Positions 282 through 17,288 of a DNA stretch of 64,000 bases are shown in pieces (the first letter of the stretch is position 1; each line of letters begins with the position of its first letter). Source of the DNA: Bacteroidota bacterium (GTDB lineage Bacteria; Bacteroidota; Bacteroidia; Flavobacteriales_D; Sanyastnellaceae); assembly GCA_027621555.1 (NCBI GenBank), contig JAQCBJ010000003.1:1-64000 (forward strand), read 5' to 3'. The position numbers were made by a program, and so were the translations under genes. Under the pieces are notes generated by a model. The model was not told the origin of the DNA, made no database searches, and worked only from the letters and a program-made list of their open reading frames with translations.

Positions 282-2363
282 GAAGCAGACACCAACGACA
301 ACGGCATTTGTGACTCTGAAGAGATTGGCGGCTGCACGGATCCGATGAACCCAGGGTTCGATCCTAACGCAACGTTCGACGACGGTTCTTGTCTCGTGGG
401 AGGCTGTTTGATCGCTGACGCGTGCAACTACGACGCGAATGCAGATTACCAGCTCCCTGGCGCTTGCGAATTCGAATCTTGTGCTGGATGTACGGACAGC
501 ATGGCGTGCAACTACGACATGGATGCCACCATCGACAACGGTACGTGTGAATACGCAGAAGAGTACTACGCTTGTGACGGCACATGCTTGAACGATGCGG
601 ATGGTGACGGCGTGTGTGACGAATTGGAAGTGTTGGGTTGCACTGATATGGACAACCCCGCTTACGATCCAACTGCAACGGAAGACGATGGCAGCTGCTT
701 GGTGGCAGGTTGCTTGTTGCCCTTCGCGTGCAACTACAACCCTGATGCAGATTACATCGTGGTGAGCTTGTGTGACTTCTCAAGCTGTGTGGGATGTACG
801 GATGCAGATGCTTGCAACTACGACCCAGAAGCGACGTTGGGCAGCGCCAGCCAGTGTGACTACCCAGCCGTTCCGTTCTTGGATTGCGATGGCAATTGCA
901 TCAACGACGACGACGGTGACGGGGTGTGCAACGAACAGGAAATTCCAGGTTGCACAAACCCAGACGCTGTCAACTTCAACCCATACGCAACAGACGACAA
1001 TGGCAACTGCATTGTTCTGACTGGAGGTTGTGTGTTGCCATTTGCTTGCAACTACGATGCTGATGCGGATTACTACCTCCCAGGTTCTTGTGACTTCAGC
1101 TGCTTGTACGGAACGGGAGAAAGTGATTGCAACAATGAAATGGCTTGCAACTTCGGTGCAGAAGACGAGCCTTGCGTGTTCTTCGATGCTGAAGGCAACA
1201 CGTGTGTGCCTGGTGGATGCATGGTGGAAGCTGCTTGCAACTACGACGTGGACGCTGTGTACAACGACGGGTCATGTGAATTCACGACGTGTCAAGTGTT
1301 TGGCTGCAACGTTGAAGCTGCTTGCAACTATGATGCGAGTGTGACTGTGAACAATGGAAGCTGCGACTTCGCAACGTGCTACAGCAACGATGTAGAAGGC
1401 TGCACCAACCCATTGGCCTGCAACTTCGACGCCAACGCCAACTTGAACGACGGCAGCTGTGACTTCACGAGCTGTGCAGGTTTGGGTTGCACGGATGAAA
1501 GCGCTTGCAACTACGACGCAGACGCCACCATCAACGATGGCAGCTGCGTGTCAGCCACGACCGGATACGATTGCTTCGGCAGCTGCATCATGGATGTGGA
1601 CGGTGACGGTGTGTGCGACATGGACGAAGTGGGAGGCTGCACCGACATGGGCGCCAACAACTACGACCCAGCGGCGACCGACAACAACGGCACGTGCACG
1701 TACGACGCTGAAGGATGCACGGACATCTACGCTTGCAACTTCAACTACCAGGCGACGACTGACAACGGTTCTTGTGACTTCGGTTGCTACGGCTGCATGA
1801 ACGAAAATGCTTGCAACTTCAACGCTGACGCCACGCTGCACGACGCGAACGAGTGCTCATTCTTGTACAGTTACGAGCTCACGGGTGCCACGGACGTGGT
1901 TCTTGAAGAAGCCACCGACTACATCTACGCGTTCACTGCGGGATCCGAATACAACTGGACCGTGGAAGGAGGTGTGATTGTCGACGGCCAGGGCACGAGC
2001 GCAGTAAGTGTGGTTTGGCTGCTCGAAGAGGGTGTCATTGCGGTTCAGGAAATCAACAGCGACGGTTGTGAAAGTGACCTCGTAAGCTTGATTGTGTCTG
2101 GAACGGCTTCTGACATCGACGAAGCAACGGTGGCCTTCACGGCCTTCCCGAACCCTGCCAACGACGTGGTCATCGTGAACACCAACGGATTTGAAGCTCA
2201 CGCCTTCCAGGTGTTGGATGCTGCCGGCCGTGTGGTGATCAGCGAGCGTCTCGTGGCAGGCCGCAACGTGATCGATGTGGCTCACCTCGCGAATGGCACC
2301 TACCGCATGGTCCTTGACCAAGCGAATGGTCGTGCCGTGAAGCAGTTGGTGATTGCGCACTAA
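3..2363 (+). CDS. Secreted Cys-rich repeat protein with T9SS sorting domain, 5' end outside window
   Basis: The frame is already open at base 3, so the gene starts upstream; 786 residues are visible. Roughly fifteen copies of a Cys-rich unit (GCTD..ACNYD..AT..DGSC) occupy visible residues 110-620, broken by Asp-rich D-x-D-x-DG stretches likely to bind calcium. A PKD-like beta-sandwich segment with a Y-x-W-x-V-x-GG core follows (about 620-705); the gene at 3809-6271 carries the same module. The last 75 residues begin with FPNPANDV and form a typical type A C-terminal sorting domain of the type IX secretion system, so the mature protein should be exported and anchored at the surface or released. 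The repeats carry no catalytic motif; adhesion or matrix building is a guess. The family assignment of the sorting domain is firm, the function is unknown. Confidence 0.85.
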   Translation: MYECGCSDIPAGDCDCDGNQLDALGVCGGDCTADADADGICDDVDDCVGALDACGVCNGPGEIYECGCSDIPAGDCDCDGNQLDALGVCGGDCEADTNDNGICDSEEIGGCTDPMNPGFDPNATFDDGSCLVGGCLIADACNYDANADYQLPGACEFESCAGCTDSMACNYDMDATIDNGTCEYAEEYYACDGTCLNDADGDGVCDELEVLGCTDMDNPAYDPTATEDDGSCLVAGCLLPFACNYNPDADYIVVSLCDFSSCVGCTDADACNYDPEATLGSASQCDYPAVPFLDCDGNCINDDDGDGVCNEQEIPGCTNPDAVNFNPYATDDNGNCIVLTGGCVLPFACNYDADADYYLPGSCDFSCLYGTGESDCNNEMACNFGAEDEPCVFFDAEGNTCVPGGCMVEAACNYDVDAVYNDGSCEFTTCQVFGCNVEAACNYDASVTVNNGSCDFATCYSNDVEGCTNPLACNFDANANLNDGSCDFTSCAGLGCTDESACNYDADATINDGSCVSATTGYDCFGSCIMDVDGDGVCDMDEVGGCTDMGANNYDPAATDNNGTCTYDAEGCTDIYACNFNYQATTDNGSCDFGCYGCMNENACNFNADATLHDANECSFLYSYELTGATDVVLEEATDYIYAFTAGSEYNWTVEGGVIVDGQGTSAVSVVWLLEEGVIAVQEINSDGCESDLVSLIVSGTASDIDEATVAFTAFPNPANDVVIVNTNGFEAHAFQVLDAAGRVVISERLVAGRNVIDVAHLANGTYRMVLDQANGRAVKQLVIAH

Positions 2364-2493: not shown

Positions 2494-3666
2494 ATGACAC
2501 GCTTTTTCTTACTTTCGACGCTCGTCTGCTTTGCGGGCGCTCTTTCCGCCCAAACCTCTTGCCCCAACCCTTACGACGGCAATGGTGACGGGGCGGTGAC
2601 GATCAACGACTTGTTGGACCTTCTGGGCCTGTTTGGCGATGCGGACACGGACCAAGACGGGATTTGGGACAGCGTGGACGCGTGCGTCGACACCGGTGCG
2701 TGCAACTACGCGGCTGACCCGACGGAGTCTTGCGCCTACATCGACGTGCTGGGCATCTGTGGTGGGGGCTGTGAAGGCGACGGCGACGGCGACGGCGTCT
2801 GCGACGACGTGGACACGTGCGTCGGCGATCTCGACGAGTGCGGGGTCTGCAACGGGCCTGGCCCGACGGAAATCGTGATCGAAAGCATCACCATTCTTTA
2901 CGACAGCGTGTATGCTCCGCAGATTGACACGTGGTTTGTGTTTGAAGTAGGTGCTGACACAACCTTCAGCTACACCTGCGCGCCGTTCTTCGGCGCCTGC
3001 GGTGATCCTGTGAGCTACCAAGGCTACGACTACGCCACGGTGCTTATTGGCGATCAATGTTGGTTCGCGGAAAACCTGCGCAACGAATACTACGAGAACG
3101 GCGACGGGATCCCTGCGAACCTGAGCGACGGCGAGTGGTCGTCCACCACTTCCGGCGCGTTGGCGGTCTACGGAGAGGACCTAGGTTGCGAGACCTACTC
3201 ACCAGACATCGATGCCTGCGAGCCCGCCCCATCCTTGAACGAATACGGCCGGCTGTACAATTGGTATGCTGTGGACGATTCTCGTGGCCTTTGCCCAAGC
3301 GGTTGGCACGTTCCCACGGACGGGGAGTGGATAACGATGGAAATGGCCCTTGGGATGAGCGAGGCGGAGGCGAACGGCACGGGCTGGCGAGGCACCGACC
3401 AAGGAGCGCAGATGAAAACGGACTACGGGTGGTACAACGGGGGCAACGGCACGAATTCGAGCGGCTTTTCAGGTTTGCCGGGCGGCTACCGCTACGACAG
3501 TGGCCTCTTCAACGGCGCTGGTTACCTCGGCTTCTGGTGGAGTTCCTCGCCCTATGGATTCCTCGCATGGGACCATTACCTGGGCAGCAGCAGCGAGTAT
3601 GTCAACCGCAACATCAACGATCGACGAGTCGGCTTTTCTGTTCGTTGCGTTCGGGATGCCGAGTGA
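2494..3666 (+). CDS. Secreted FISUMP-domain protein with N-terminal EF-hand loop
   Basis: The ATG at 2494 is preferred over an in-frame GTG at 2476 because it opens directly with a signal peptide ending in SAQ. Immediately after the cleavage site is a single dockerin-like calcium loop (DGNGDGAVTINDLLDLL, residues about 27-43), then a Cys/Asp-rich module (about 60-125) almost identical in style to the start of the previous gene (CGVCNGPG). Residues 160-390 form a Fibrobacter succinogenes major paralogous (FISUMP) domain, seen in IG.QCWFAENLR, YGRLYNWYA, CPSGWHVPTD and the closing GFSVRCVRD. FISUMP proteins are surface or secreted proteins of unknown biochemical role. No T9SS tail is present, so the export route after the Sec step is unclear. 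It is 390 residues long and probably a single-gene unit. Confidence 0.85.
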   Translation: MTRFFLLSTLVCFAGALSAQTSCPNPYDGNGDGAVTINDLLDLLGLFGDADTDQDGIWDSVDACVDTGACNYAADPTESCAYIDVLGICGGGCEGDGDGDGVCDDVDTCVGDLDECGVCNGPGPTEIVIESITILYDSVYAPQIDTWFVFEVGADTTFSYTCAPFFGACGDPVSYQGYDYATVLIGDQCWFAENLRNEYYENGDGIPANLSDGEWSSTTSGALAVYGEDLGCETYSPDIDACEPAPSLNEYGRLYNWYAVDDSRGLCPSGWHVPTDGEWITMEMALGMSEAEANGTGWRGTDQGAQMKTDYGWYNGGNGTNSSGFSGLPGGYRYDSGLFNGAGYLGFWWSSSPYGFLAWDHYLGSSSEYVNRNINDRRVGFSVRCVRDAE

Positions 3667-3808: not shown

Positions 3809-6271
3809 TCACCGGGTCACGACCAAAGACAGGATCACCCGCGTGTCAACAACAAATGTGTATGTCCCTTGGGGAAGGTGGTCAAGCGGCAAGCGTTGTT
3901 CGAGGGTTTCGATTTTGCCACGGAGCACCGCAGCTCCTTGGCCATCGACGAGCACATAGGAAGTCCCCACCAGTTCAGGGCCCACACTCACGGTCACCAT
4001 GTCGGAGGCGGGGTTGGGGTAGGCCACGATGCGAGGAAGCATAGGAGATTCGCCGACGCTCCACACGTCATCAAGGACGATGACGTCCATGCACACGGAG
4101 TCGCCCACGCATCCGTCTTGGTTGGTTTCCCGCACGCAGACATAGCCTGTGGTGTCCCAAAGCACAGAGATGGCAAACGTGGCCAAAACCTGCTCCTCGA
4201 TGGCTCCTTCAAACCACCACTCGTAGGTGCTCCCCAACGTGTACTCGTAGTAGTAGGCTGCGCTGTCGCCTTGCACCACTTCGTCGTTGCCGGTGAGCTC
4301 CAACGACTCTGGGATGTCCGCAGGAGGGACCACCACGGTGGCCATGGCTTCACATCCCAAGGCATCGGTGGCCGTCGCCGCGTAGGTTCCAGCTTCGACG
4401 CTGTTGGGGTTGATGCCGCCCCAGTCAAGGCTCACGTTGCCTGATCCTCCGTTGATGTCAGCGGCAATGGACCCGCTCATCGGGTCGTTGCACTCCGGCA
4501 CCGTCGCCTCGAGGTCCAAGGTGAAGGGGGAGGGCTCGGTGATGAGGAACTCCATTTCCACGCTGCACAGGTTGGCGTCGTTGACTTCGACCGTGTACGG
4601 TCCAGCGGGGAGGGCGCTCGGGTTGTACCCGCCCCAGTCGACGGTGTAGGGGGCAACGCCGCCTTCGTACGTGACCTCAGCCGTGCCGTCGTTTCCGTCG
4701 TGGCAATTGACCGCGGTGTATTCAACGTCGGCGGTGAGGTCGGTGGCTTCTGTGATGGTCTGGATGAACGGCGCCGAGGTGTTGCCACACTGGTCGGTGG
4801 CCACAAAGGTGCGCGTGAGAACCACGGAAAGCGGGCACAGGCCGTCCTGGTACGTCGACGTCATGTTGACCTCGAAGTCCGAGCAGATGTCGTCGGCGAC
4901 AGGGACGTCAAAGACCTCGCCGTCGAGGTTGTTCGTCACGATTTGCTCGTCGGGCTCATTCAACCAAAACGGCGCGTCGTTGTCCTCGATCACGAGCACC
5001 TGTTGCACGGTGGTCTGGTTGCCGCATTGGTCCTTGATCGTCGTGTATTTCTTTTCCACGGACTCCCCGTCGCAGGATCCTGGCAGGGACACAAACGAAG
5101 GCTCGCCCACCACCGTCACGGTCCCGCCGCACGCGTCCTGGGCAATGAGGGGCTCGAACACCACCGGGTCGTTGCAATCCAACGTGTCGGCGTCGAGGTT
5201 GGTCAACACCACAGGAGGGAGGTTGTCCACCACCGTGATGGTCTGCAGCATGGAGTTTTGGTGTCCGTGGCAGTCGGTGATCAACCAAAACCGGTCAATC
5301 GTGTAGTTGCCCGGGCAGCTGCCTGCGAAAACCGTCTCGGAGTACTGGATATCCACCCCGTCGTTGTCGTCGTAACAGTCCACGGGAAACAGCCCGTGAT
5401 AAAGGAGCGCAGCAGGGGCCGGCTGGGCCGAGATGACCGGGGCGACAGGCACGCTGCTGCAAGAAACCGTGGCGTTCTGAGGTTGCGTCAAGAACTGGGG
5501 CAACAGGCTGTTGCCGTCGCAGTCCACGTCGTCGTTTTCGGGGTAAACGCACGGTTGCCCTGCGAGAGGGGGGTCCGTGGCGTTGGGGTTGTAGTTGCAC
5601 GCCCATTCTTCCTGGCATCCAGGAACCTCCAGCGCGTTGCAAATGCCGTCTCCGTCGAAGTCGAGGTAGCAATTCCCGTCGCAATCGTACAAGCCGCTTG
5701 GGTACCAATCGATGGCGTATTCGCACAAATCGTTGTACGGGTATGTCGCATCGGGCACGTAGTTGCACGCCAGCGGGTCGAAGCAATCACCGGCACACAC
5801 CCCTCCCAAGGTGATGTCCATGTCGTAATTGGCCCATTGGCTCCAAGTATTGCTGAAGGAAATGGTCCATTCACCTGAGCCACTCAAGTTGGCTGGAAGG
5901 GAGGGGTTTCCTGAGGTGTTGATGAAGAAGCTGTAATTGCCCCAGGCGGTGGTCATCTGCCAGGGTGGAGGCCAAATGTCACCCAAATTGTTGCAACCCG
6001 GCGGAATACCTGTGGGTGCCCAGCCCCACCAGGCGACGCACTGGCCATTGGGAGCTTCAATGACGATGGCCAAGTCCTCAGGCCAACTCGAGAAGCCTCC
6101 TGACCAATCCAGATCAATATCGACAAATTGCAGGTTGCCAGACAAGGTAAACGAGTTGGATATCGTGGTATTTCCGGCGACATATTCGTCAATGTCCAAT
6201 TCAGCATTGCATTGTGCAAGTGCTTGACTCATTAACACGGCGAAGGTTGCAAATAGGGTAATGTGCTTCAT
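3809..6271 (-). CDS. Large secreted multidomain protein (P-domain-like, SprB/HYR repeats) with T9SS sorting domain
   Basis: The start at 6271 (MKHITLF) gives a clean signal peptide ending ALAQ; longer in-frame starts would precede it with a basic stretch that crosses the upstream terminator. The product is 820 residues. Residues 20-145 resemble a proprotein-convertase P-domain fold. Two GCTD-like Cys repeats and a DFDGDGIC loop follow (about 150-240). Then come HYR-like beta domains with paired cysteines (about 255-520), two SprB-like repeats with VNC.DGNDGTA and YTVDWGG signatures (about 525-670), the PKD-like module shared with the first gene, and a C-terminal T9SS type A sorting domain starting YPNPASD. 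SprB-type repeats are known from gliding adhesins, so a surface adhesion role is plausible but not shown. Confidence 0.83.
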   Translation of the reverse strand: MKHITLFATFAVLMSQALAQCNAELDIDEYVAGNTTISNSFTLSGNLQFVDIDLDWSGGFSSWPEDLAIVIEAPNGQCVAWWGWAPTGIPPGCNNLGDIWPPPWQMTTAWGNYSFFINTSGNPSLPANLSGSGEWTISFSNTWSQWANYDMDITLGGVCAGDCFDPLACNYVPDATYPYNDLCEYAIDWYPSGLYDCDGNCYLDFDGDGICNALEVPGCQEEWACNYNPNATDPPLAGQPCVYPENDDVDCDGNSLLPQFLTQPQNATVSCSSVPVAPVISAQPAPAALLYHGLFPVDCYDDNDGVDIQYSETVFAGSCPGNYTIDRFWLITDCHGHQNSMLQTITVVDNLPPVVLTNLDADTLDCNDPVVFEPLIAQDACGGTVTVVGEPSFVSLPGSCDGESVEKKYTTIKDQCGNQTTVQQVLVIEDNDAPFWLNEPDEQIVTNNLDGEVFDVPVADDICSDFEVNMTSTYQDGLCPLSVVLTRTFVATDQCGNTSAPFIQTITEATDLTADVEYTAVNCHDGNDGTAEVTYEGGVAPYTVDWGGYNPSALPAGPYTVEVNDANLCSVEMEFLITEPSPFTLDLEATVPECNDPMSGSIAADINGGSGNVSLDWGGINPNSVEAGTYAATATDALGCEAMATVVVPPADIPESLELTGNDEVVQGDSAAYYYEYTLGSTYEWWFEGAIEEQVLATFAISVLWDTTGYVCVRETNQDGCVGDSVCMDVIVLDDVWSVGESPMLPRIVAYPNPASDMVTVSVGPELVGTSYVLVDGQGAAVLRGKIETLEQRLPLDHLPQGTYTFVVDTRVILSLVVTR

Positions 6272-6387: not shown

Positions 6388-7173
6388 TTAAGCGCAACTC
6401 GAACCAAAGACGCTCAACAACTCGAGCAAGTCCGCAACGGTGGTCAAGCCGTCGCCGCTGATGTCCGTAGTGCATCCTTCGGTGCATCCAAATTCAGCAA
6501 GAATTTCAAGCAGATCGCCCACGGTGACCGAGTTGTCGCCGTTGACGTCTCCAAAGCATGTGTCCAAGATGCAGCTCCCGTCGTCCACCACCGCTGCGGG
6601 GTTGTAGTTGAGAGCAGTGGCATCTGTGCAGCCTTCCTCACCCAGGTCAATCACAAAGGAGCCAAAGACCTGCTCCTGGCTGAATGGAAAACCAAACACC
6701 GTCACCCATCCGTTTACGCTGATGTCCACACGGTAAGAACCTTGCACGGTGGGAATGCCAGTGAGGGCGGCGCAATATTGGTTGCCCCCCAAGAACGAGC
6801 ATGGGTTTCCAGAGTCGCCATTGTTGTTGCACGTCACGCCTAGACCAACGGCATCGAGTGTCGTCGTCACCAACGTGTCACTCAAATCCACCAACGTGAT
6901 TGTGGCAAGCGAAACGCTGTCTAGGGGTGTGGTTGGGGAGAAGGGAAGGGTCGAGTCGATGTCGAGCACGTATTGCGGAAGCAGAATGTGCAGCACATCC
7001 TCGTAAGGCATGCCGACAACTCCGGGTTCAAATTGTTCCCCGAGCTCAGGATTGGGAGAAACCCCCAACGTTTCGGTGCCAAAATCAAAGTCGGAGGTGC
7101 ACTGAGCGTTCGACTCCAAGGAATTCAAGGCTCCCACAAAGGCAAGAGCGGCAAAGAGAAATGCTTTTTTCAT
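6388..7173 (-). CDS. Secreted protein with N-terminal beta domain and C-terminal Cys-framed dockerin-like pair
   Basis: The start at 7173 (MKKAFLF) gives a signal peptide ending SNAQ; the product is 261 residues. Residues 30-165 are a beta-rich domain with a G-x-PYE...LP entry, which resembles the N-terminus of the next upstream gene (7200-8933). A single GCTDATALNYNP unit follows. The last 57 residues hold two EF-hand-type loops, DVNGDNSVTVGD and DISGDGLTTVAD. Each loop is followed by LLE-L and FG, and each is framed by cysteines. This layout matches dockerin pairs in spacing, with four added cysteines. No T9SS tail is present. It lies 27 bp after its upstream neighbour and is probably cotranscribed with it. 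Partner and function are unknown. Confidence 0.82.
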   Translation of the reverse strand: MKKAFLFAALAFVGALNSLESNAQCTSDFDFGTETLGVSPNPELGEQFEPGVVGMPYEDVLHILLPQYVLDIDSTLPFSPTTPLDSVSLATITLVDLSDTLVTTTLDAVGLGVTCNNNGDSGNPCSFLGGNQYCAALTGIPTVQGSYRVDISVNGWVTVFGFPFSQEQVFGSFVIDLGEEGCTDATALNYNPAAVVDDGSCILDTCFGDVNGDNSVTVGDLLEILAEFGCTEGCTTDISGDGLTTVADLLELLSVFGSSCA

Positions 7174-7199
7174 GGTGTTGAGAATCATTTGGTTCAAGG

Positions 7200-8933
7200 T
7201 CATTCAGGACATTCAAGTCCAAAGTTGGCGAGCAAGGCGAGCAAGTCTTCGACACTTACGCTGCCGTCTCCGGTCAAATCGGCGAAGCAATCTCCAAGGC
7301 ATCCGTATTCGCCAAGAATTTCAAGAATGTCGGCCACAGACACGAGCAAATCGGAGTTCAAATCACCCAAGCAAATGGGGAATTCGCAGGTTCCGTCGTC
7401 CACCGTCGCCGTCGGATCGAAGTTGGTGGCTCCAGGGTCTGTGCATCCGGTGCACGTCGAGCCATCGCCACCACATACCCCACATTGGTCCGTGGTCGCC
7501 GTGCCACCGCAGGTGCCTTCGCAATCCACTCCGGCGATGCAGTTCCCGTCACAATCGAGGTTGGGCTCGGGGTAGGCACAGGAACCGTCATCCGTGTTTG
7601 CGGCTTGGTCGAAGTTGCACGCATTCAAATCAGTGCATCCAAGCACCGTAAGCACCTCTGCGCCATCCACCACGCCATCGCAGTTGTTGTCGACGTTCTC
7701 ACCCGTTCCCGCAGCACCAAAGTAGACTGCTGCGTTCGCATCATCGCAATCTTGGTCGTTGAAGGCATAGGGGGTTGCGTTGGCCGGATCGCAAGCGTTG
7801 ACTGGAACGGCAGGATCGCCGTATCCGTCTCCATCCAAATCGGCAAACACGTCCAGGCCTTCAAAGACCACCACCTGTGTGCTTTCATTGAAACTGGCCA
7901 CAACCGTTTCCGTAAGGGTCAAAATGGCTGTGGTGCTGTTCGAGACCGTGATGTCTCCGCCGCCGGTTGGCGTAAAGTCACTCGACCCTAAGAAGTCGTC
8001 CGCCGTGATCACACCATCGCTGTCGTAAAACGCAATGTTGTACGTTGTTCCTGCGTCAAGGGGAATGTTGAACCCTCCAAACGTCGGCGTTTGGTTTCCG
8101 TCCACGTACCCTGAAGTGTAAATTCCACCTTGCGGGCCACTCAGCACAAAGTAGGGGTCAGGCTGACCAAAGAAGTCCTCAATGTCGCCGCCCCAGCCGC
8201 CACCGAGCGAAGTGATGTTCACTTGAGTCAACGACAATTCCGTGATTTCAGTCAACACCGACACCGTGTAGGTGCCGGGCGAATCGTACGTGAAGACAGG
8301 GTTGAACGCATTGGAAGTTTGGCCATTCCCAAAATCCCAGCTGTACGTCGCACCCGCATCCGTGATCAGGTTGGTTCCTTCCACAGTCAGTGGCGCGCAA
8401 CCTTGAGTGGTGCTCAAGCTGAAGCTGGTTGGGTCCCCGCCTCCAGCACCTGGTTCAATGACCAAGGGCAAGCTGAAACTCTCGTTGACCGTTTGTTGAA
8501 ACCCAAACGCCGAGACCAACACCGTCACGTTGATGTCCACAAAAAAGGAACCACTGACGAGCGGCGTGCCACAGACGATAGAACATCCATAGTACTCTCC
8601 GTTTCCGGGTTGGTACACCCCGTCGGGGTTGTTTGGCGTGAATTCCAACCCAAACGGCAAACCCGTGACGGAGGAAATGGTCACAGTCAGGAGCGTGGCT
8701 TCCAATCCCGATCCGGGGTCAACCACGGAGGGAGGGAGGTTGAACGTTGCCGTGGCTTCGTAAGGCTCACCTTGCGTCCCATTTGGGAGTTGTTCAGGGC
8801 AAAGCACAGGGAAGTCGACTGCCACGCAAGACAGGTCAGGGGTGCAAGTAGAACATTGCGCCCAGGCACTCAAGGATTGAGCCGCTCCGAGGAGCAAGGC
8901 CATGGAAAGTTTGGTCAGGTTACTCATGTTCAT
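7200..8933 (-). CDS. Secreted PKD/MopE-motif protein with C-terminal dockerin-like pair
   Basis: A 577-residue product with a signal peptide ending AWAQ; ATG codons at 8933 and 8927 are both possible starts. Residues 30-170 are paralogous to the N-terminal domain of the downstream gene. A PKD domain (about 180-240, with YSWDFGNG) and a C2-like beta segment follow. Next comes a MopE-type putative metal-binding motif with DLDGDGYGD, DCDD and DNNCDGV (about 365-430). GCTD Cys repeats come next, then a C-terminal pair of EF-hand loops (DLNSDLLVSVAD and DLTGDGSVSVED) with the same four-cysteine frame as its neighbours. There is no T9SS tail. It sits 15 bp after the protease gene and 27 bp before the next gene, so a three-gene operon from 11285 to 6388 is likely. 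Confidence 0.82.
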   Translation of the reverse strand: MNMSNLTKLSMALLLGAAQSLSAWAQCSTCTPDLSCVAVDFPVLCPEQLPNGTQGEPYEATATFNLPPSVVDPGSGLEATLLTVTISSVTGLPFGLEFTPNNPDGVYQPGNGEYYGCSIVCGTPLVSGSFFVDINVTVLVSAFGFQQTVNESFSLPLVIEPGAGGGDPTSFSLSTTQGCAPLTVEGTNLITDAGATYSWDFGNGQTSNAFNPVFTYDSPGTYTVSVLTEITELSLTQVNITSLGGGWGGDIEDFFGQPDPYFVLSGPQGGIYTSGYVDGNQTPTFGGFNIPLDAGTTYNIAFYDSDGVITADDFLGSSDFTPTGGGDITVSNSTTAILTLTETVVASFNESTQVVVFEGLDVFADLDGDGYGDPAVPVNACDPANATPYAFNDQDCDDANAAVYFGAAGTGENVDNNCDGVVDGAEVLTVLGCTDLNACNFDQAANTDDGSCAYPEPNLDCDGNCIAGVDCEGTCGGTATTDQCGVCGGDGSTCTGCTDPGATNFDPTATVDDGTCEFPICLGDLNSDLLVSVADILEILGEYGCLGDCFADLTGDGSVSVEDLLALLANFGLECPE

Positions 8934-8948
8934 TCAGTTTCAGCAGTT

Positions 8949-11285
8949 TCAGCAATTTCCTCCAAATGCGGCAAGAAGCGCCAACACGTCAGCGACGTTG
9001 ACGTTGCCGTCCGAATCCACGTCCGCCGTGCATCCAGAGCCGCAGCCAAACTCGGCCAAAACGGCAAGGACATCAGCCACAGTCACGGACCCATCTTGGT
9101 TCAAATCTTCTGGGCAAGTTGCTGGGGTCTCTTCGTCGAGGTCCAGGGTGCCGTTGCAGTTGTTGTCTAAGCCGACGCCCGTCCCTGATGCTCCGGGATA
9201 CATGGTGGAGTTGGCGTCGTTGCAATCGCCGGACACAAAAGTGTGTCCCGCAGGTGCCACGCTCAAGCAGGTGTTTCCTCCAAGGCTTCCGCCGTAACCA
9301 TCTTGGTCTGCGTCCAAATAGTACGCTTGGCCGTACACGCAAGAACCGTCGTCAGATGTAGCCGCAGCGTCGTAGTTGCATGCCGTGCCATCTGTGCATC
9401 CTGGTGTGTCTGGCCCGGTGGCTTCAACACAGAAATTGTGGGTGGCCTGCGAACCAAAGTTTCCGCCCGCAACCATGGAAGCGAGCACGTTGCCGTCACC
9501 GTCGGTGAGCGTGTAGTTCCCCACCACGCCCCCGTATTGAAGGCCGTCGCCATAGCTGTCGTTCACCGTCAACGTGTAGCATCCAGTCGCCACGCATGCC
9601 GTAGCGTTGTAGTTGGTTTGGCTTCCTGAATAGGGGCCTCCTTCCAGGATGACGTTTCCTGCGTCATCCGTCACATTCCACGTCGTTTCACCGGGGTAAT
9701 TGTCCGTCAACAAGGCCATCGAAATGTTGACGCCGTTCAAGACACAGGAACCGTCGTCCACGAGCGCAGATGGGTCGTAGTTGCAAGCCGCAGGGTTGGT
9801 GCAACCACCACACGTGCTGTTGTCACCACCACACACGCCACAATCGTCATTGACCGTGCAGCTGCCGTCATCAAAAATGGCCTGAGGGCTGTAGTTGCAT
9901 GCGGTTGGGTCCGTGCAGCCGTTGTCGGGATTGAATCCTGTGGGGTAGCCATCGAGAACGAGGGTTCCTGATCCCGTAGGATCCAAGTATTGACTCACGC
10001 CAAGACCCCAGCTGATGTCGAAACGGCCGTAATAGTCGTATTGTCCGTTGTTCGACGTGCCTGAACAGGCGGCGGCACCGCCGTAGAGTTGGCCAATGAT
10101 TCGATGATCTTGGTTGAAAAGGGGTGAGCCGGAAGATCCGGGCTCCGTGACACCGGCTTCCCATTGGCTGATCCACCAAACCTGTGCGCCACCCGCTGTG
10201 CTGGTGTACGGCGCGTTGTTTTCGAAACAAATTTTCTTGACGTCCCCTGAAGGGTGGTGGATGCCTACCGCGCTCGAGTGCGCCGCGCTTGATGCGTCCC
10301 ATCCAGCGTATTCCACACCCCAGCTTGCAGGAGGAGCAGAGCTGAGCTGAATCAAGGCGACGTCAGACCCGCCGTTGTTCACCAGGAGGCTTCCGCCTGA
10401 GATGCTGTTGTTCGTCGGGCCAGTGCTTCCCGAGCAAGTGCTGCTCTCGTGGTTGAAGTAGTAGGTCCACGTGTTGGGCGTGCCCAAACAGTGGTTGGCC
10501 GTCAAGAAATACGGCGTCCCGTCGTTGGCCGTGTTGTTCACCATGGACCCCGTGCAAGTGGCGAAACCGCCGTTTACAATCAAGGCCACAGCTTGTTTTT
10601 CCACGACCCAATCGGCACCTTCAGGACAATTCACGTTGATGTTGCAAGCACCGCTGTTGCCGAAGGGACCTTGCGAGGCATTGGCCTGCAATTCAGCTTC
10701 TCGACGAAGCAAGGACCGGTAGCCCTGCACGACTTGAGAAACTTCGATTTCGCCCGTGGCTGGAATGCCAAGGGGTTCACGGTATTCCAGCACGACCTGA
10801 TCCCCTTCGACCAAGCTCAGGGCCAGACCTTCCCATTCTTTGACGTTGTCATGCGTAAAGCCGCCGATGAAGTGATCCCGCTCGGCAGTCCACACGAACA
10901 ACTCGCCTCCTTTCGGCACCACAAATCGAGAGAGGTAGAAACTCAAGCTCGTGGCTCCCACAGCGCGAACGGGAAGCCGCCACACCCGAAACCCTTGCTC
11001 CTCGGTCCAGGCTCCAGCATTTTCCATGGTCCAATTGACCTCGTGTTCGACACCAAAACGCCAAGGCGCATCCTTCATGGTCGCCGTCACGGCGTCCTCG
11101 GTTTCCAACGCCTCGACATCAAGGGCATCAAACGTGTTCCAAATCAGGTTGTAATTCACTTCATTCCCCCAGTTCAGAGGCTGTCCTCCTCGGCCGATTT
11201 GGGCTATGGCCGACGAAACAACGAGGAAGGAAAGCAGAAGTGACAGCGCGGCTTTAGGCATTGAAAATGAAAGGGTTCGCTTCAT
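8949..11285 (-). CDS. Secreted lysyl-endopeptidase-like serine protease with MopE motif and dockerin-like pair
   Basis: The 778-residue product has a signal peptide ending AIAQ, a propeptide-like region to about 205, and a trypsin-fold (S1-type, Achromobacter lysyl-endopeptidase-like) domain at about 210-430. The triad is visible: His265 in TANHC, Asp308 in SDVALI and Ser385 in GSSGSPLF. After it come three GCTD Cys repeats around a beta domain of the type that follows such proteases (about 515-610). A MopE-like metal motif with DADQDGYGG and DNNCNGT (about 655-715) follows, then a terminal pair of EF-hand loops (DLNQDGSVTVAD and DVDSDGNVNVAD). Usual lysyl endopeptidases of this phylum end in a T9SS tail; this one does not. 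It is the first gene of a probable three-gene minus-strand operon. Confidence 0.85.
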   Translation of the reverse strand: MKRTLSFSMPKAALSLLLSFLVVSSAIAQIGRGGQPLNWGNEVNYNLIWNTFDALDVEALETEDAVTATMKDAPWRFGVEHEVNWTMENAGAWTEEQGFRVWRLPVRAVGATSLSFYLSRFVVPKGGELFVWTAERDHFIGGFTHDNVKEWEGLALSLVEGDQVVLEYREPLGIPATGEIEVSQVVQGYRSLLRREAELQANASQGPFGNSGACNINVNCPEGADWVVEKQAVALIVNGGFATCTGSMVNNTANDGTPYFLTANHCLGTPNTWTYYFNHESSTCSGSTGPTNNSISGGSLLVNNGGSDVALIQLSSAPPASWGVEYAGWDASSAAHSSAVGIHHPSGDVKKICFENNAPYTSTAGGAQVWWISQWEAGVTEPGSSGSPLFNQDHRIIGQLYGGAAACSGTSNNGQYDYYGRFDISWGLGVSQYLDPTGSGTLVLDGYPTGFNPDNGCTDPTACNYSPQAIFDDGSCTVNDDCGVCGGDNSTCGGCTNPAACNYDPSALVDDGSCVLNGVNISMALLTDNYPGETTWNVTDDAGNVILEGGPYSGSQTNYNATACVATGCYTLTVNDSYGDGLQYGGVVGNYTLTDGDGNVLASMVAGGNFGSQATHNFCVEATGPDTPGCTDGTACNYDAAATSDDGSCVYGQAYYLDADQDGYGGSLGGNTCLSVAPAGHTFVSGDCNDANSTMYPGASGTGVGLDNNCNGTLDLDEETPATCPEDLNQDGSVTVADVLAVLAEFGCGSGCTADVDSDGNVNVADVLALLAAFGGNC

Positions 11286-11439
11286 GGTTCAGTGATTTGA
11301 GGCTTTAGCTGAGGTTAAACTCACCTGACAAGTTAAGACATTCATCCTTGAAAAGTTGGTATTGTCGAGGGAATATGCTTTTTTGTAGACAAGTTTGCGC
11401 AATTCGTCGCATCCCCATCCTGATTTCACCTACTCAATC
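11286..11439. other. Divergent promoter region between two secreted-protein genes
   Basis: This 154-bp, comparatively AT-rich gap drives genes in both directions. It contains T-runs and several TTG and TA-rich words (for example around 11356-11396) but no full TTG-N19-TAnnTTTG match on either strand, so promoters are inferred only from position. Confidence 0.4.
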
Positions 11440-13233
11440 ATGTCTCCCTCCAGGCACAGCATTCGAAGGGCTCTCGCCATGTTGTTGATGTTTCGCTTCG
11501 CGACGTTGACGGTAGCTCAAACCTTTACGGATGGCGACCCAGATGGGGTCTTGTACACACAGCATGTGGGAGGATTTTTGGGTCATGGCGTGAGCTTCGC
11601 CGATTTCAACAATGACGGATTTGACGATTTGTGTTTTGCCCAATTCGAGGGCGAAATTTTTGCTTACCAAGGAGATGGTGAAGGAGGATTTGAATCCATT
11701 GACTTGGGCATTGGCAACACCAACGGAGAGCCCAAAAGCGTGCTTTGGGCCGATTTTGACAACGACGGGGACCAAGACTTGTTGATCACCCAGAGACTCG
11801 CAGAAAATCGGCTGTACGCCAGGATGCCAAGTGGATCTCTCCAAGAGGTCCCAAGCGCAGGCGGGGTGGCGGGGACAAATCTCGAGCGAACGTTTGGTGC
11901 AGCCGTGGCAGATTTCGACAAGGACGACCGTCTCGACATTTACCTCTGCAACTATCATTCACCGCAAACCAATTCGGAAGAGAACCATCTCTTTCGTTCA
12001 ATCGGCGGAATGGATTTGGCGATGCAATTCGAAGAGGTGACATCGCTGGCAGGGGTCGGAAATGGGGTCAAACAATCGTTTCAAGCCACGTGGATTGACA
12101 TCGACCGGGACGGTTGGCTCGACTTGCACGTGATCAACGACCGGACATTCTGGCCTGATGCGATGTACCGCAACCAGGGTGATGGCACGTTTGTGGACAT
12201 GGCCGCTACCTGGGGCATTGGCATTGGGGAATATTCGATGAGCTCCACGTTTGCAGATTTCGACAAAGACCACGATTGGGACATCGTGGTGGCCAACGGG
12301 GCGAGTGAGGGAAACAACTTTTTGATGTGCATGGGGCATCCGTTCCTCGATTCCGCCGGCGAGACTCCATCGTTGAACTACGCCAACGTGGCTTCGGAAG
12401 CGAACATTTTGCTCGACAATTTGGCGTGGGGAGCGTTGTTTTTCGACGCCGACAACAACGGTTGGCTTGACCTTTTCATCGGAACAGGGACGTCCTTTTA
12501 CACGGATTTCCCGTCCATTCTAGACGTGTATGACGACAACTTGAACGGGTTCTTTTTGAACAACGGCGGCACCTTTCCTTTGGAAGCAGCGCCAGAAAAC
12601 GTGTACACGGACAAAGAGTTGACATTCTCCTCCGCTTTTGCTGACCACAACCGTGACGGGGCGATGGACTTCGTGTCCCATCGCATTGGGGCTCGCGCTC
12701 GACTTTTAAACGGTGTTCCCAACGGCAATCACTGGGTTCAAGTCACCTTGGAGTCAAGCAGTGGAAACAAGGATGCCATAGGCGCGGTAGTGACAGCATG
12801 GAAGGATGGGGTCGGGGACATGCGCACGGTGACCTGCGGATCGGAGTACCTCAATCAAAACAGCCGGCGCCTCCATTTTGGGCTGGGCGCTTCTCCAACG
12901 GTGGACAGTTTGACCGTGGATTGGCCTTCCGGGACCCACACGTCCTTTGCCAGCCCCCCCGCCAACGTCATTCATCACCTTCTGGAGAATGGGGGGGATG
13001 GTGGCGTCATCACCTCGGGGTGCACGTATCCGCTGGCGTGCAATTACCTCGATTCCGCCCAAGAGGACAACGGCTCGTGTGATTTCTCTTGCGCATGTGG
13101 TGAAGGAACGGTTTGGGACAGCAACGTGTCGCAATGCATTGCCTCTTGCACGGCAGACCAAAATGGCGACGGAGAAATTGGAACGGGGGATTTGATCCTG
13201 TTCCTAACCTTCTTTGGCAACACGTGCGAATGA
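11440..13233 (+). CDS. Secreted FG-GAP/VCBS propeller protein with UnbV domain and one EF-hand loop
   Basis: The ATG at 11440 is chosen over a TTG 45 bp upstream because it begins the signal peptide (ends TVAQ). The product is 597 residues. Residues 30-420 contain repeated calcium-binding blades of FG-GAP/VCBS type, seen in ADFNNDGFDD, ADFDNDGDQD, VDIDRDGWLD-like and ADFDKDHDWD words. An ASPIC/UnbV domain follows (about 435-525), with H-WVQV...N-DAIGA and LHFGLG. One GCTYPLACNY unit precedes a single terminal EF-hand loop (DQNGDGEIGTGD), which looks like half of the dockerin-like pair of its neighbours. Such CRTAC1-like proteins are extracellular; ligand unknown. Confidence 0.85.
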   Translation: MSPSRHSIRRALAMLLMFRFATLTVAQTFTDGDPDGVLYTQHVGGFLGHGVSFADFNNDGFDDLCFAQFEGEIFAYQGDGEGGFESIDLGIGNTNGEPKSVLWADFDNDGDQDLLITQRLAENRLYARMPSGSLQEVPSAGGVAGTNLERTFGAAVADFDKDDRLDIYLCNYHSPQTNSEENHLFRSIGGMDLAMQFEEVTSLAGVGNGVKQSFQATWIDIDRDGWLDLHVINDRTFWPDAMYRNQGDGTFVDMAATWGIGIGEYSMSSTFADFDKDHDWDIVVANGASEGNNFLMCMGHPFLDSAGETPSLNYANVASEANILLDNLAWGALFFDADNNGWLDLFIGTGTSFYTDFPSILDVYDDNLNGFFLNNGGTFPLEAAPENVYTDKELTFSSAFADHNRDGAMDFVSHRIGARARLLNGVPNGNHWVQVTLESSSGNKDAIGAVVTAWKDGVGDMRTVTCGSEYLNQNSRRLHFGLGASPTVDSLTVDWPSGTHTSFASPPANVIHHLLENGGDGGVITSGCTYPLACNYLDSAQEDNGSCDFSCACGEGTVWDSNVSQCIASCTADQNGDGEIGTGDLILFLTFFGNTCE

Positions 13234-13270
13234 CCATTGGTTTTCCTCCATGAAACCTTCATAACGCGAG

Positions 13271-13302
13271 TTGCGCGGGGAGGCTTCCGACAAATATCTT
13301 CG
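13271..13302 (+). promoter_or_regulatory. Candidate promoter for yebC
   Basis: A TTG at 13271-13273 is followed after 21 bases by TATCTTCG (13295-13302), one mismatch from the Bacteroidota -7 consensus TAnnTTTG. The box ends 15 bp before the chosen ATG, which supports the start at 13318 over a longer frame beginning at 13237. Confidence 0.55.
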
Positions 13303-13317
13303 CGAGAAACTACAAGC

Positions 13318-14049
13318 ATGGGACGCGCATTTGAATTCCGGAAAGAGCGTAAAATGAAACGCTGGGCAGCCATGTCCAAGATTTTCGCTCGTCTGAACAA
13401 AGACATCATCCTTGCCATCAAGGAAGGTGGGGGGATTTCTGACCCTGACACGAACGCTCGGCTTCGAGCTGTTTTGCAAAACTGCAAGGCAGCCAACATG
13501 CCCAAAGACAATGTCGAGCGCGCCATCAAGAAGGCCACGGACAAGGATACTTCGGACTACAAAGAGGTCACGTTTGAGGGTTACGGTCCTCATGGAATTG
13601 CCGTATACGTCGAGACGGCCACGGACAACAACAACCGCACCGTCGCCAACGTGCGATCCCACTTCAACCGCAGTGGAGGCCAGTTGGGCACCACGGGGTC
13701 AGTCGAATTCATGTTCAATCGGATGTGCTTTTTCAACATCGTGGACACGGGCCTCGATTTGGACGACTTGACCTTGGAGTTGATTGACGTCGGGGCGGAA
13801 GAGGTGGAGCGCGACGACGAAGCCAATCAAATCATCATTTCCGCGCCGTTCGAGTCCTTCGGGGGCTTGCAATCCAAACTCGAATCGGACGGCTACGAAA
13901 TCGTGGAATCGGGCCTCGAACGGGTTCCCACGACCACCAAGGCGTTGAGCCCCGAACAGGTGGAAGAAGTGGAGGGGTTGATTGAAAGGCTGGAAGGGGA
14001 TGAAGACGTGCAAGCCGTCTTCCACACGATGGAGCCTGCCATCGGCTAA
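13318..14049 (+). CDS. yebC: YebC/PmpR-family (TACO1) regulatory protein
   Basis: The 243-residue product matches the YebC/TACO1 family throughout. It has a basic N-terminus (MGRAFEFRKERKMKRWA), the NARLR and NMPKDNVERAIKKA region, the YEGYGPHG-like motif (here FEGYGPHGIAVYVE), the NRT..VRS.FNR.GG.LG..GSV segment, and a C-terminal EL...LE...DVQ..FH pattern. The family is cytoplasmic; members act as transcription regulators or as translation factors that help ribosomes through proline-rich stretches. The start is fixed by the conserved N-terminus and by the promoter box upstream. It is a single gene in a block of secreted-protein genes. Confidence 0.93.
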   Translation: MGRAFEFRKERKMKRWAAMSKIFARLNKDIILAIKEGGGISDPDTNARLRAVLQNCKAANMPKDNVERAIKKATDKDTSDYKEVTFEGYGPHGIAVYVETATDNNNRTVANVRSHFNRSGGQLGTTGSVEFMFNRMCFFNIVDTGLDLDDLTLELIDVGAEEVERDDEANQIIISAPFESFGGLQSKLESDGYEIVESGLERVPTTTKALSPEQVEEVEGLIERLEGDEDVQAVFHTMEPAIG

Positions 14050-14138
14050 ATCGCTCAGATTGAGTTGGTGATGCCCAGGATTGGGTGGTTTTCATCTCGA
14101 AGTGAAACCCAACCGCCTTTCTTGCGTAAATTCAAGGA

Positions 14139-17100
14139 ATGCGCGCACTCCATCCGCACAAATCCCGCCTCCGTGGTAGCGTGACCATCCTCAAAGGATG
14201 GGTCGTGTTTGCCTTCCTGCAGTGCAGTCTGACGGCGGAGTTGGGGGCGCAGCATTGGTCGAGTTGGATGGCCGGAGACAGCTGCGACTTGGTCACCGCA
14301 CGGCAGCAATTCGACGCGCAGCGCGTCCTCCGAACAGAACCACGATCGGTTGGAGTCAAGCCCTTCGAACGCTGGGCATGGTGGATGCAGGAGCGAGGAG
14401 GTCTCGCGAAAACGCCACGCCCTGAAAGTTGGTGGGCCGCCACCGAGAGTTGGCGCGTTTCTTCCGCCACCATGTCGGCGATGCCGATCAACGGTCCCGC
14501 CTGGCAATACGTTGGGCCTGACGAAATTCCCGTTCACGGCGGGGCCGGGCGCGTCAATCGCGTGAGGTTGGACCCCAACGATTGGCAGCATTGGCTGGCA
14601 TGCGCTCCCTCTGGCGGGCTGTGGCAGTCATTCGACTCAGGGCTGACATGGGAGGTCCTTGGCGTGGACGCCCTGAGCCCCATTGGAGCCACGGACGTGT
14701 GGATGGACCCCACCGACAACCAGCATCTGTGGCTGGCCACCGGGGATGGAAATGGCGGAGATACCTACAGCATCGGTCTTCTTGAAACGTGGGACGGAGG
14801 CCAATCTTGGCTTCCCTTGGAGTTGGCTTTTGAAGCGAATCAAGGTCGCCGCATCCAAACCATGGCGCATCACCCCACGGGATTGGACACGGTGCTCGTG
14901 GCCACGGACCTTGGCTTGTTTTTCACGACGGACGGCGGAACGACGTTTGAACTCGTCCAATCGGGATCGGCCCGCGACGTGGTGTGGATGAATGATTCCA
15001 CGGCAGTGGCCGCCTTTGACAACCAAGGCGTGAGACGATCCACGGATGGTGGACAAACTTGGGTTGTGGCTGAACTTCCGGAGTCCACCAACAGCGTGGG
15101 TCGGATTCAATTGGCGGCTGAATCCATGGGGGTGAGCTTTGAGCGCGACACCCTTTACGCCGTCGCAGGACATTACTTCCAACAAAATTTCTTGGCCGTT
15201 TGGCGAAGCACGGACGCAGGCCTCACATGGTCTGTTCAGAGCACACGATTGACCGGCCCCAACCTTCTGGGCTACACCGTAAGTGGAGCGGACAACGGAG
15301 GGCAAGCGTTTTGGGACCTTTGCCTGGAAGTGGATCCGGAGAATGCGCACAGGCTTCTCGTTGGTGGGGTGAACCTCTGGGAATCTCTAGATGGAGGTGT
15401 GTCTTGGAATTGCGTTGTGCATTGGCAGGGAGCTGGGGAAGCGCATTATGCGCACGCCGACCAGCACGACATCCAGTTCCTGCCTTCTGGGGATGTGCTT
15501 TTGGCCAACGACGGAGGGGTCTTCCAATGGTCGAACGAAGGCGTGGAGGACAAATCCGACGGCTTGGACATCGCCCAAGGATACGCCTTGAGTTGCCACC
15601 CCGCGAAAGCCGCAACGTGGATGTTGGGCACGCAAGACAACGGCACCAACCTTGTGTCGCCGCCATTTGATGCTCGGATCTTGGATGGCGACGGCTTCCA
15701 CAGCCTTTTCGACACGACAACGTCTGACCGCCTTTATGCTTCTGCTTATTACGGATTGCTCTACCGAAGCGACGACGGTGGCCGAACCATGACGAACATC
15801 GCAAACTACTACCAGAGTTCAGGGCCCAACGAATTGGGAGCCTGGCAAACGCCTTTTCAAATGCATCCGGCTGTTTCTGGACGCATCGTGGCGGCGAAAA
15901 AATTGCTCCACTGGTCGGAAGATGGAGGCGAAACGTGGAATTCGGCAGGGGGCATGGGTACGCTTCGCAGCACGGCTCTTGCGCTTTCGCCGGTGCATTC
16001 TGAAGTGGCGCTTGTGGCGAAAAATGCTCAGTTGCACTTCAAAGACGAAGGCGCATCGGAATTCACGCAGGTGGAAGGACCTTCCTCCGATTACGTCGGC
16101 GACGTCGCGCTATCCCAAGACAGCGCCTGCACGTGGTGGGTGGCGTATGCCAGCTACGACCCTCTGGCCCAGATGTGGCGTTCCTCGGACCAAGGCGAAA
16201 CGTGGGAAAACGTCAGTTCTGGCTTGCCGCAACTTCCTGTGCACCGCGTCATCCAATTGCAAGACGGGACGTGGATGTGTGGGTCGGACATGGGCGTGCA
16301 TCGTTGGAACGAAGCCGATTTGGTTTGGGAGCTCTACGGCACGGGATTGCCCTTGTCGCCGGTCGTGGACCTGGTGGAAGACGCGTTGTTGAATAGACTG
16401 CTCGTGTCGACCTACGGTCGTGGTGTGTGGTCGGCGTCGTTGCCCGAGGCCCCACAAACGGAGGCGACGATCATCCACCTTTTGGCTCCTCCGACACAAT
16501 GCATGGTGAGTCTGACGGGCTCTCCTCAGGTCCAAAACACGGGGACAGACCCCATTTCCCACATCTCGTACAGAATTGCCGCCACGCAAGGAGCCTGGGT
16601 GGTTGTCGATACCGTGGTCGCGACGTTTGCAACGCCCCTCGCCCCACAGGCCAGGGAAGTCTTGCCAGCCTTCGACATTTCCGTTCCCACGGCGGGAAGG
16701 TGGGAGGTCAGTGTCGACGCGTGGAGCCAGGGACAAGTTGCCATTGGGCCGACGTACAAGACAGAGCTTTGGGCTTCTGGACTGGGGCACCAAATGACCC
16801 TCGAGTGGTGGGGAGATTGTGAGAGCGTGGACCTTCGTTGGGAATTGCGACAGACGGCAACGGAAGAAACGATTTTGAGGAGTGCGCCAACTTGGCCTGG
16901 AGACACGTTATCAAGCACGTGGTGTCTTTCAGCGGGATGCTATGAAATCTTTTGGGAGGACGAGGGGGAAGACGGTTTTTCCGGCTCCTATTGCGGGGAA
17001 GCAGGAGGCTTCTCGCTCCGCGGCCCCTTCGGAGATGTCGTGCAAGAGGAGGCAGGGACGGATTTTGGGGCTTCATTGAGCACGGAGTTCTGCATCAGCC

Positions 17101-17288
17101 TCCCATGGTGCTATGCCGACTACAACGGTGACGGAATGCGGTCGGTGAACGACTTGCTTACGTTGCTCTCTGACTTTGGGTGCAGCACGACCTGCTTCGC
17201 AGACAACAACCAGGATGGCAGCGTGGGTGTCAACGACCTCATGAACATGCTGTCGGTCTACGGGTCCGGATGTGAGGTTTCTGAATGA
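14139..17288 (+). CDS. Secreted BNR/sortilin-like propeller protein with C-terminal dockerin-like pair
   Basis: The product is 1049 residues, with a signal peptide whose hydrophobic core lies at residues 19-34 and which ends GAQ. Residues 120-770 carry many Asp-box/BNR repeats (S-x-DGG-x-TW, for example STDGGQTW, STDAGLTW, SEDGGETW and SSDQGETW), the hallmark of sialidase- and sortilin-type beta propellers. Beta-rich domains follow to about 985. The tail holds two EF-hand-type loops, DYNGDGMRSVND and DNNQDGSVGVND, in the same four-cysteine frame as the three operon genes at 6388-11285. No sialidase RIP motif was noticed, so binding rather than hydrolysis is likelier. An imperfect -7 box (TAAATTCA, 14127-14134) lies four bases before the ATG. 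Confidence 0.82.
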   Translation: MRALHPHKSRLRGSVTILKGWVVFAFLQCSLTAELGAQHWSSWMAGDSCDLVTARQQFDAQRVLRTEPRSVGVKPFERWAWWMQERGGLAKTPRPESWWAATESWRVSSATMSAMPINGPAWQYVGPDEIPVHGGAGRVNRVRLDPNDWQHWLACAPSGGLWQSFDSGLTWEVLGVDALSPIGATDVWMDPTDNQHLWLATGDGNGGDTYSIGLLETWDGGQSWLPLELAFEANQGRRIQTMAHHPTGLDTVLVATDLGLFFTTDGGTTFELVQSGSARDVVWMNDSTAVAAFDNQGVRRSTDGGQTWVVAELPESTNSVGRIQLAAESMGVSFERDTLYAVAGHYFQQNFLAVWRSTDAGLTWSVQSTRLTGPNLLGYTVSGADNGGQAFWDLCLEVDPENAHRLLVGGVNLWESLDGGVSWNCVVHWQGAGEAHYAHADQHDIQFLPSGDVLLANDGGVFQWSNEGVEDKSDGLDIAQGYALSCHPAKAATWMLGTQDNGTNLVSPPFDARILDGDGFHSLFDTTTSDRLYASAYYGLLYRSDDGGRTMTNIANYYQSSGPNELGAWQTPFQMHPAVSGRIVAAKKLLHWSEDGGETWNSAGGMGTLRSTALALSPVHSEVALVAKNAQLHFKDEGASEFTQVEGPSSDYVGDVALSQDSACTWWVAYASYDPLAQMWRSSDQGETWENVSSGLPQLPVHRVIQLQDGTWMCGSDMGVHRWNEADLVWELYGTGLPLSPVVDLVEDALLNRLLVSTYGRGVWSASLPEAPQTEATIIHLLAPPTQCMVSLTGSPQVQNTGTDPISHISYRIAATQGAWVVVDTVVATFATPLAPQAREVLPAFDISVPTAGRWEVSVDAWSQGQVAIGPTYKTELWASGLGHQMTLEWWGDCESVDLRWELRQTATEETILRSAPTWPGDTLSSTWCLSAGCYEIFWEDEGEDGFSGSYCGEAGGFSLRGPFGDVVQEEAGTDFGASLSTEFCISLPWCYADYNGDGMRSVNDLLTLLSDFGCSTTCFADNNQDGSVGVNDLMNMLSVYGSGCEVSE

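Follow-up and report, generated by a model that had tools for sequence, protein, structure and literature searches.

Known dockerins and anchoring tags

Anchoring of secreted proteins in Bacteroidota is usually explained by the T9SS or by lipidation. Dockerins have been described in other systems, and in clostridial dockerins the ends of the domain are held by a non-covalent clasp (PMC4728124). The 'planctosome' is a proposed dockerin/cohesin peptidase complex of freshwater Planctomycetes (PMC6461901). In NCBIfam, the model NF041540 (cut-off of 29 bits) describes a 'GC-type dockerin domain-anchored protein'. Since NCBI curators already call the domain 'domain-anchored', tails of this kind are known. 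A literature search revealed no paper using the name 'GC-type dockerin', and searches on dockerins together with T9SS, Flavobacteriales or sorting listed no description of such a tail. Relative to the sources searched, four features described below are new: the pattern of cysteines, the occurrence of half units, the absence of a detectable cohesin and an expansion accompanied by a T9SS trade-off.

Dockerin-ended proteins in the window

We analyzed a stretch of 64,000 nucleotides (the window), in which an earlier note had described four secreted proteins ending in the same dockerin-like tail framed by cysteines. The four tails are located at the places given there, and the equal cysteine spacing is borne out by a gap-free alignment, with Cys at unit positions 1, 25, 29 and 55 in all four. 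A half unit at the end of the FG-GAP/ASPIC protein and another one right behind the signal peptide of the FISUMP protein were likewise found as described. The loops of the tails are of the EF-hand type, but the pattern D-x-N-x-D-G is not strict, e.g., DLNSDL in the PKD protein. All features are listed in Table 1.

Table 1. Tail units, tail-bearing genes and T9SS sorting domains in the window
Feature	Position	Strand	Remark
Full GC-type dockerin tail of the 6388-7203 protein	6391..6558	-	
Secreted protein, one GCTD-type Cys repeat, tail at end	6388..7203	-	
Full GC-type dockerin tail of the 7200-8933 protein	7203..7373	-	
Secreted PKD / MopE-metal-binding protein, tail at end	7200..8933	-	
Full GC-type dockerin tail of the protease	8952..9116	-	NF041540 above cut-off; predicted dockerin structure
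Secreted trypsin-like protease (PF13365), tail at end	8949..11285	-	
Half unit (single loop-helix, two Cys), C-terminus of FG-GAP/ASPIC protein	13141..13230	+	
Secreted FG-GAP / UnbV-ASPIC propeller protein, half unit at end	11440..13233	+	
Full GC-type dockerin tail of the sortilin-like propeller protein	17109..17285	+	
Secreted Sortilin/BNR propeller protein, tail at end	14139..17288	+	
Half unit right behind signal peptide of FISUMP protein (2494-3666), without closing Cys	2575..2661	+	
T9SS type A sorting domain of the 3-2363 protein (contrast)	2145..2354	+	
T9SS type A sorting domain of the 3809-6271 protein (contrast)	3842..4021	-	

Pfam and NCBIfam models place T9SS tails on the two contrast proteins and none on the dockerin-ended proteins of the window, as had been claimed. 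The sorting domain of the 3-2363 protein reaches 37.3 bits in Pfam (above cut-off) and that of the 3809-6271 protein 25.4 bits, slightly below the cut-off of 27. The dockerin-ended proteins of the window show no match to PF18962 or TIGR04183 and are not of T9SS type A.

The 3-2363 protein also contains tandem cysteine repeats of the form GCTDxxACNYDxxAxxDDGSC, for which no Pfam match was obtained. Repeats of this type are shared by many proteins with either kind of tail, dockerin or T9SS. An ORF that looks YebC-like by eye (13237-14049, +) separates two of the tail-bearing genes.

The tails are predicted to be dockerins

The likeness to dockerins held up in structure prediction, in fold and profile matches in the PDB and with the NCBIfam model, and we are confident that the window tails represent dockerin domains as judged from the predicted fold. 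An AF2 prediction from 29 full tails has a mean pLDDT of 95.7, with helices at 13-21 and 41-49. In a Foldseek search of the PDB, the 28 best hits were without exception entries that contain a dockerin, headed by 2y3n_B, a type II dockerin (rmsd 1.0-1.1, Z 9.8), which was also matched in a PDB profile search with the tails (E = 5e-8). The single-motif half unit was predicted as one loop and one helix with a pLDDT of 89.6. Pfam Dockerin_1 (PF00404) gave weak matches below cut-off in the window proteins. NF041540 was exceeded by the tail of the window protease, and the other three window tails reach 20-23 bits, under its cut-off. In the whole genome NF041540 has 26 matches at E < 1e-3, 9 of them above cut-off, and none above cut-off in 14 control genomes. 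With these counts from an independent model, the tails are not a chance similarity. The acidic loop residues are conserved in full tails as well as in half units, and we infer that the tail would bind calcium.

In a set of 175 distinct full tails from all loci analyzed, loss of C25 goes along with loss of C29 (Fisher p = 3.6e-8, ignoring kinship). C1 is kept in 139 of 139 and C55 in 169 of 169 full tails where these positions are aligned. Half units at C-termini retain exactly the first and the last cysteine. Because both inner cysteines are lost together, a C25-C29 disulphide is suggested, and C1-C55 would then pair by elimination. The alternative pairing of C1-C25 and C29-C55 was ruled out, since C25 and C29 vanish together while C1 and C55 stay.

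Number, position and cargo of the tails

A profile built from the four window tails was searched against the genome and gave 74 matches. The tail is overwhelmingly C-terminal, as the earlier note had it, with 57 units at the C-terminus (30 full and 27 half units), and it sits on signal-peptide proteins: a simple rule detected a signal-like N-terminus in 46 of the 48 tail proteins with a complete 5' end. In a scan of ORF C-terminal ends, in which internal units are under-counted, 169 of the 175 distinct full tails from all loci analyzed end at most 4 residues from the stop codon. Many copies per genome, a signal peptide and the extreme C-terminal position, as expected of a C-terminal sorting tag, are thus found together. 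A check for other positions, however, gave 10 units right behind a signal peptide and 5 internal ones (the remaining 2 are cut by the end of a contig or stretch). With these 15 units, the tail looks more like a binding module than like a secretion signal confined to the C-terminus. A lipobox-like motif occurs in 2 tail proteins compared to 3 of 45 T9SS-tailed proteins.

In most of the N-terminal half units the closing Cys is missing. This arrangement was seen in FISUMP-type proteins on contigs C15, C17, C28 and C43, where the half unit follows the signal peptide. At C107:50125 and C109:2151, an internal half unit stands ahead of an end that appears FISUMP-like by eye.

The tail-bearing proteins comprise proteases, including reprolysin domains, a GSDH-like enzyme, GH16, amylase-like, ASST-like and vanadium-peroxidase-like proteins, LTD proteins and FG-GAP/ASPIC proteins. 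Several match the NCBIfam choice-of-anchor families B, V and I. Cys-rich stretches of 80 or more residues were found in 34 of 57 tail proteins versus 15 of 48 T9SS-tailed proteins. A plasmid search gave no match.

Exchange with the T9SS sorting domain

Depending on the threshold, 45-55 T9SS domains were detected in this genome. The tail had been proposed to stand in place of the T9SS tail, and indeed none of the 48 T9SS-tailed ORFs read coincides with one of the 57 dockerin-ended ORFs. This mutual exclusion alone is partly automatic because both domains sit last in the protein. Tag swapping among homologues is more telling. With the Cys-rich repeats left out, a paralogue that ends in a T9SS domain exists within this genome for 24 of the 57 tail proteins. 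Six of these pairs share 43-68% identity over 283-618 residues: the GSDH-like pair (68% over 355 aa), the M43 proteases (63% over 283 aa), the window trypsin-like protease and its T9SS-tailed paralogue (60% over 413 aa), the LVIVD/choice-of-anchor-B-like pair (50% over 389 aa), the ASST-like pair (46% over 435 aa) and the alpha-amylase-like pair (43% over 618 aa). The family of the window trypsin-like protease, collected as relatives from other genomes and from named contigs, contains 34 dockerin-ended and 32 T9SS-ended members and none with both. A quick tree of this family, with some long branches, places T9SS-ended members around both dockerin groups, which corresponds to at least two switches of the tag.

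Distribution across genomes

The expansion of the tail is nearly restricted to the window's own family of marine Flavobacteriales, and the named relatives are marine Flavobacteriales bins, some of them filed as Crocinitomicaceae. In genera such as g1, g7, g12 and g13, nearly all genomes have 16 to 23 tails among the matches listed, most of them at least 22. Genus g8 has 1-2 tails per genome, and no tail was found in the seven sampled genomes of genus g16. Within the order, only 12 genomes outside the family have matches (1-4 each), and in a phylum sample of 395 genomes 3 match at E <= 1e-8, 2 of which belong to this family. As dozens of tails in some genera stand against none in the g16 genomes, the receptor should be findable by comparative genomics.

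T9SS domains number 35-69 per genome (1.9-2.7 Mb) in tail-rich genera versus 75 to at least 89 in tail-poor genera, and the two ranges are disjoint. Over eight genus means the Spearman rho between tails and T9SS domains is -0.86, but the genera are related, the T9SS counts are lower bounds and the tail measure is a loose first-look count, so that the anticorrelation is supporting and not decisive.

The same observations could be read in another way, namely that the T9SS machinery itself recognises the tail and exports the protein, in which case the tail would be a T9SS signal of a new class. The translocon SprA is present, so the T9SS is in place, at least for this part, and both the swapping on homologous enzymes and the smaller number of T9SS domains in tail-rich genera would fit. 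However, fold and size of the tail are unlike those of the known sorting domain, the N-terminal and internal units do not agree with such a signal, and the definition of NF041540 makes no reference to T9SS. We therefore regard this reading as improbable.

Search for a receptor

The earlier note had suggested a cohesin-like receptor elsewhere in the genome. This part was not borne out: Pfam Cohesin (PF00963) has no match at E <= 1, and a cohesin profile from this bacterial family none at E <= 0.05, in a genome that is 92% complete and at the sequence level, where a highly divergent cohesin could escape. A cohesin as the general partner of the tail was rejected on the basis of the Pfam profile, run on this genome and its family, and of the G049-derived and the family-wide cohesin profiles. 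The tail receptor, as far as these profiles reach, is not a cohesin detectable by sequence.

Cohesin-like domains do occur in the family. In genome G049, of the tail-rich genus g5, a 618-aa signal-peptide protein (L156:436-2289, -) combines four cohesin-like domains in tandem with a GC-type dockerin tail behind them; the whole protein scores 52.2 bits with Pfam Cohesin. In tail-poor genera, large proteins were observed (L155, L158, L159 and L160) in which a dockerin-like motif (DVNLDGVISAGDISQ) lies internally, between two cohesin-like domains. At the end of L155 there is a T9SS domain; L158, L159 and L160 run past the end of the stretch analyzed.

A true cohesin-dockerin scaffold, in which divergent cohesins on a scaffoldin gather the enzymes in a cellulosome- or planctosome-like manner, would be in line with the dockerin fold, with the tail on the G049 protein and with the dockerin peptidases of Planctomycetes with LTD/cohesin anchors (PMC6461901), as LTD and reprolysin domains are also found among the tail-bearers here. 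However, this genome yielded neither the cohesin-bearing partner of a cellulosome-type system nor a planctosome-type anchor or adaptor. With the G049-derived profile, the scaffoldin-like layout was found in 1 of 114 family genomes, and cohesin-like domains are mostly located in the tail-poor genera g4, g8, g10 and g19 and not in the tail-rich genera g1, g7 and g12. Such a scaffold is rather unlikely.

Repeats that bind calcium are a common feature of marine secreted proteins. The tail might accordingly be a cap without a partner, stabilised by calcium and disulphides, which protects secreted proteins that are periplasmic or leaked. The cohesin searches gave no receptor, and the abundant single-loop half units may lack the size needed for an interface of the dockerin type. 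From a passive cap, however, one would expect neither the near-uniform position at the extreme C-terminus nor the repeated exchange with a sorting tag nor the numerical trade-off with T9SS domains, and we give this explanation little credit.

A probable dockerin tag as an alternative to the T9SS domain

The reading we favor, and hold to be somewhat probable, is that the GC-type dockerin tail is used instead of the T9SS C-terminal sorting domain and serves for anchoring at the surface or outer membrane via a receptor other than a detectable cohesin. The role as a tag is suggested by swapping, position and numbers, all of them features of the sequences. The tail-bearing proteins would leave the cytoplasm with their Sec-type signal peptide, and the tail would fold into two calcium-loop/helix motifs locked by the predicted disulphides, C25-C29 between the motifs and C1-C55 joining the ends. 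A receptor would then bind the tail and retain the enzyme on the cell surface or at the outer membrane; receptor, anchoring and final location are what we infer here. A more far-reaching version, for which we would argue only tentatively, is a second, dockerin-based surface-sorting pathway beside the T9SS, in which a non-cohesin receptor captures disulphide-clasped tails, including half dockerins, and which has taken on much of the T9SS cargo.

If a dockerin tag has indeed taken T9SS cargo, this would be a further anchoring route in Bacteroidota. The 27 C-terminal single-motif half dockerins would represent a pared-down version of the domain. Where no cohesin is detectable, one may also ask which other partners the dockerin fold is able to bind.

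Comparison with known systems

The closest described family is NF041540, which shares the C-terminal domain, the GC motif after the first helix and the closing Cys. In contrast, most of the 30 full tails score too low for its cut-off, and the model makes no provision for the 27 half units as such. With the type I/II dockerins of cellulosomes (PF00404; 2y3n, Bacteroides cellulosolvens) the tails share the fold and the two loop-helix repeats, but they have four framing cysteines and a shorter linker, the cargo does not consist of cellulases and no cohesin partner was detected in the genome. Compared with the non-covalent clasp of clostridial dockerins, the putative C1-C55 bond would be a covalent version. 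In the planctosome, too, dockerins occur in a setting other than cellulose degradation, on peptidases that have LTD/HYR-type domains (PMC6461901), but the cohesin anchors and adaptors proposed for it (PMC6461901) were not detected in this genome. Like the T9SS type A sorting domain (PF18962 / TIGR04183), the tail is the last domain of signal-peptide proteins, is present in dozens per genome and has a similar cargo; it is unrelated in fold and sequence, and the sorting domain never occurs on a tail protein among those read. The choice-of-anchor families of NCBIfam also combine homologous cores with different anchor domains, whereas the swapped pairs described here mostly belong to other enzyme families and carry both tags within one genome.
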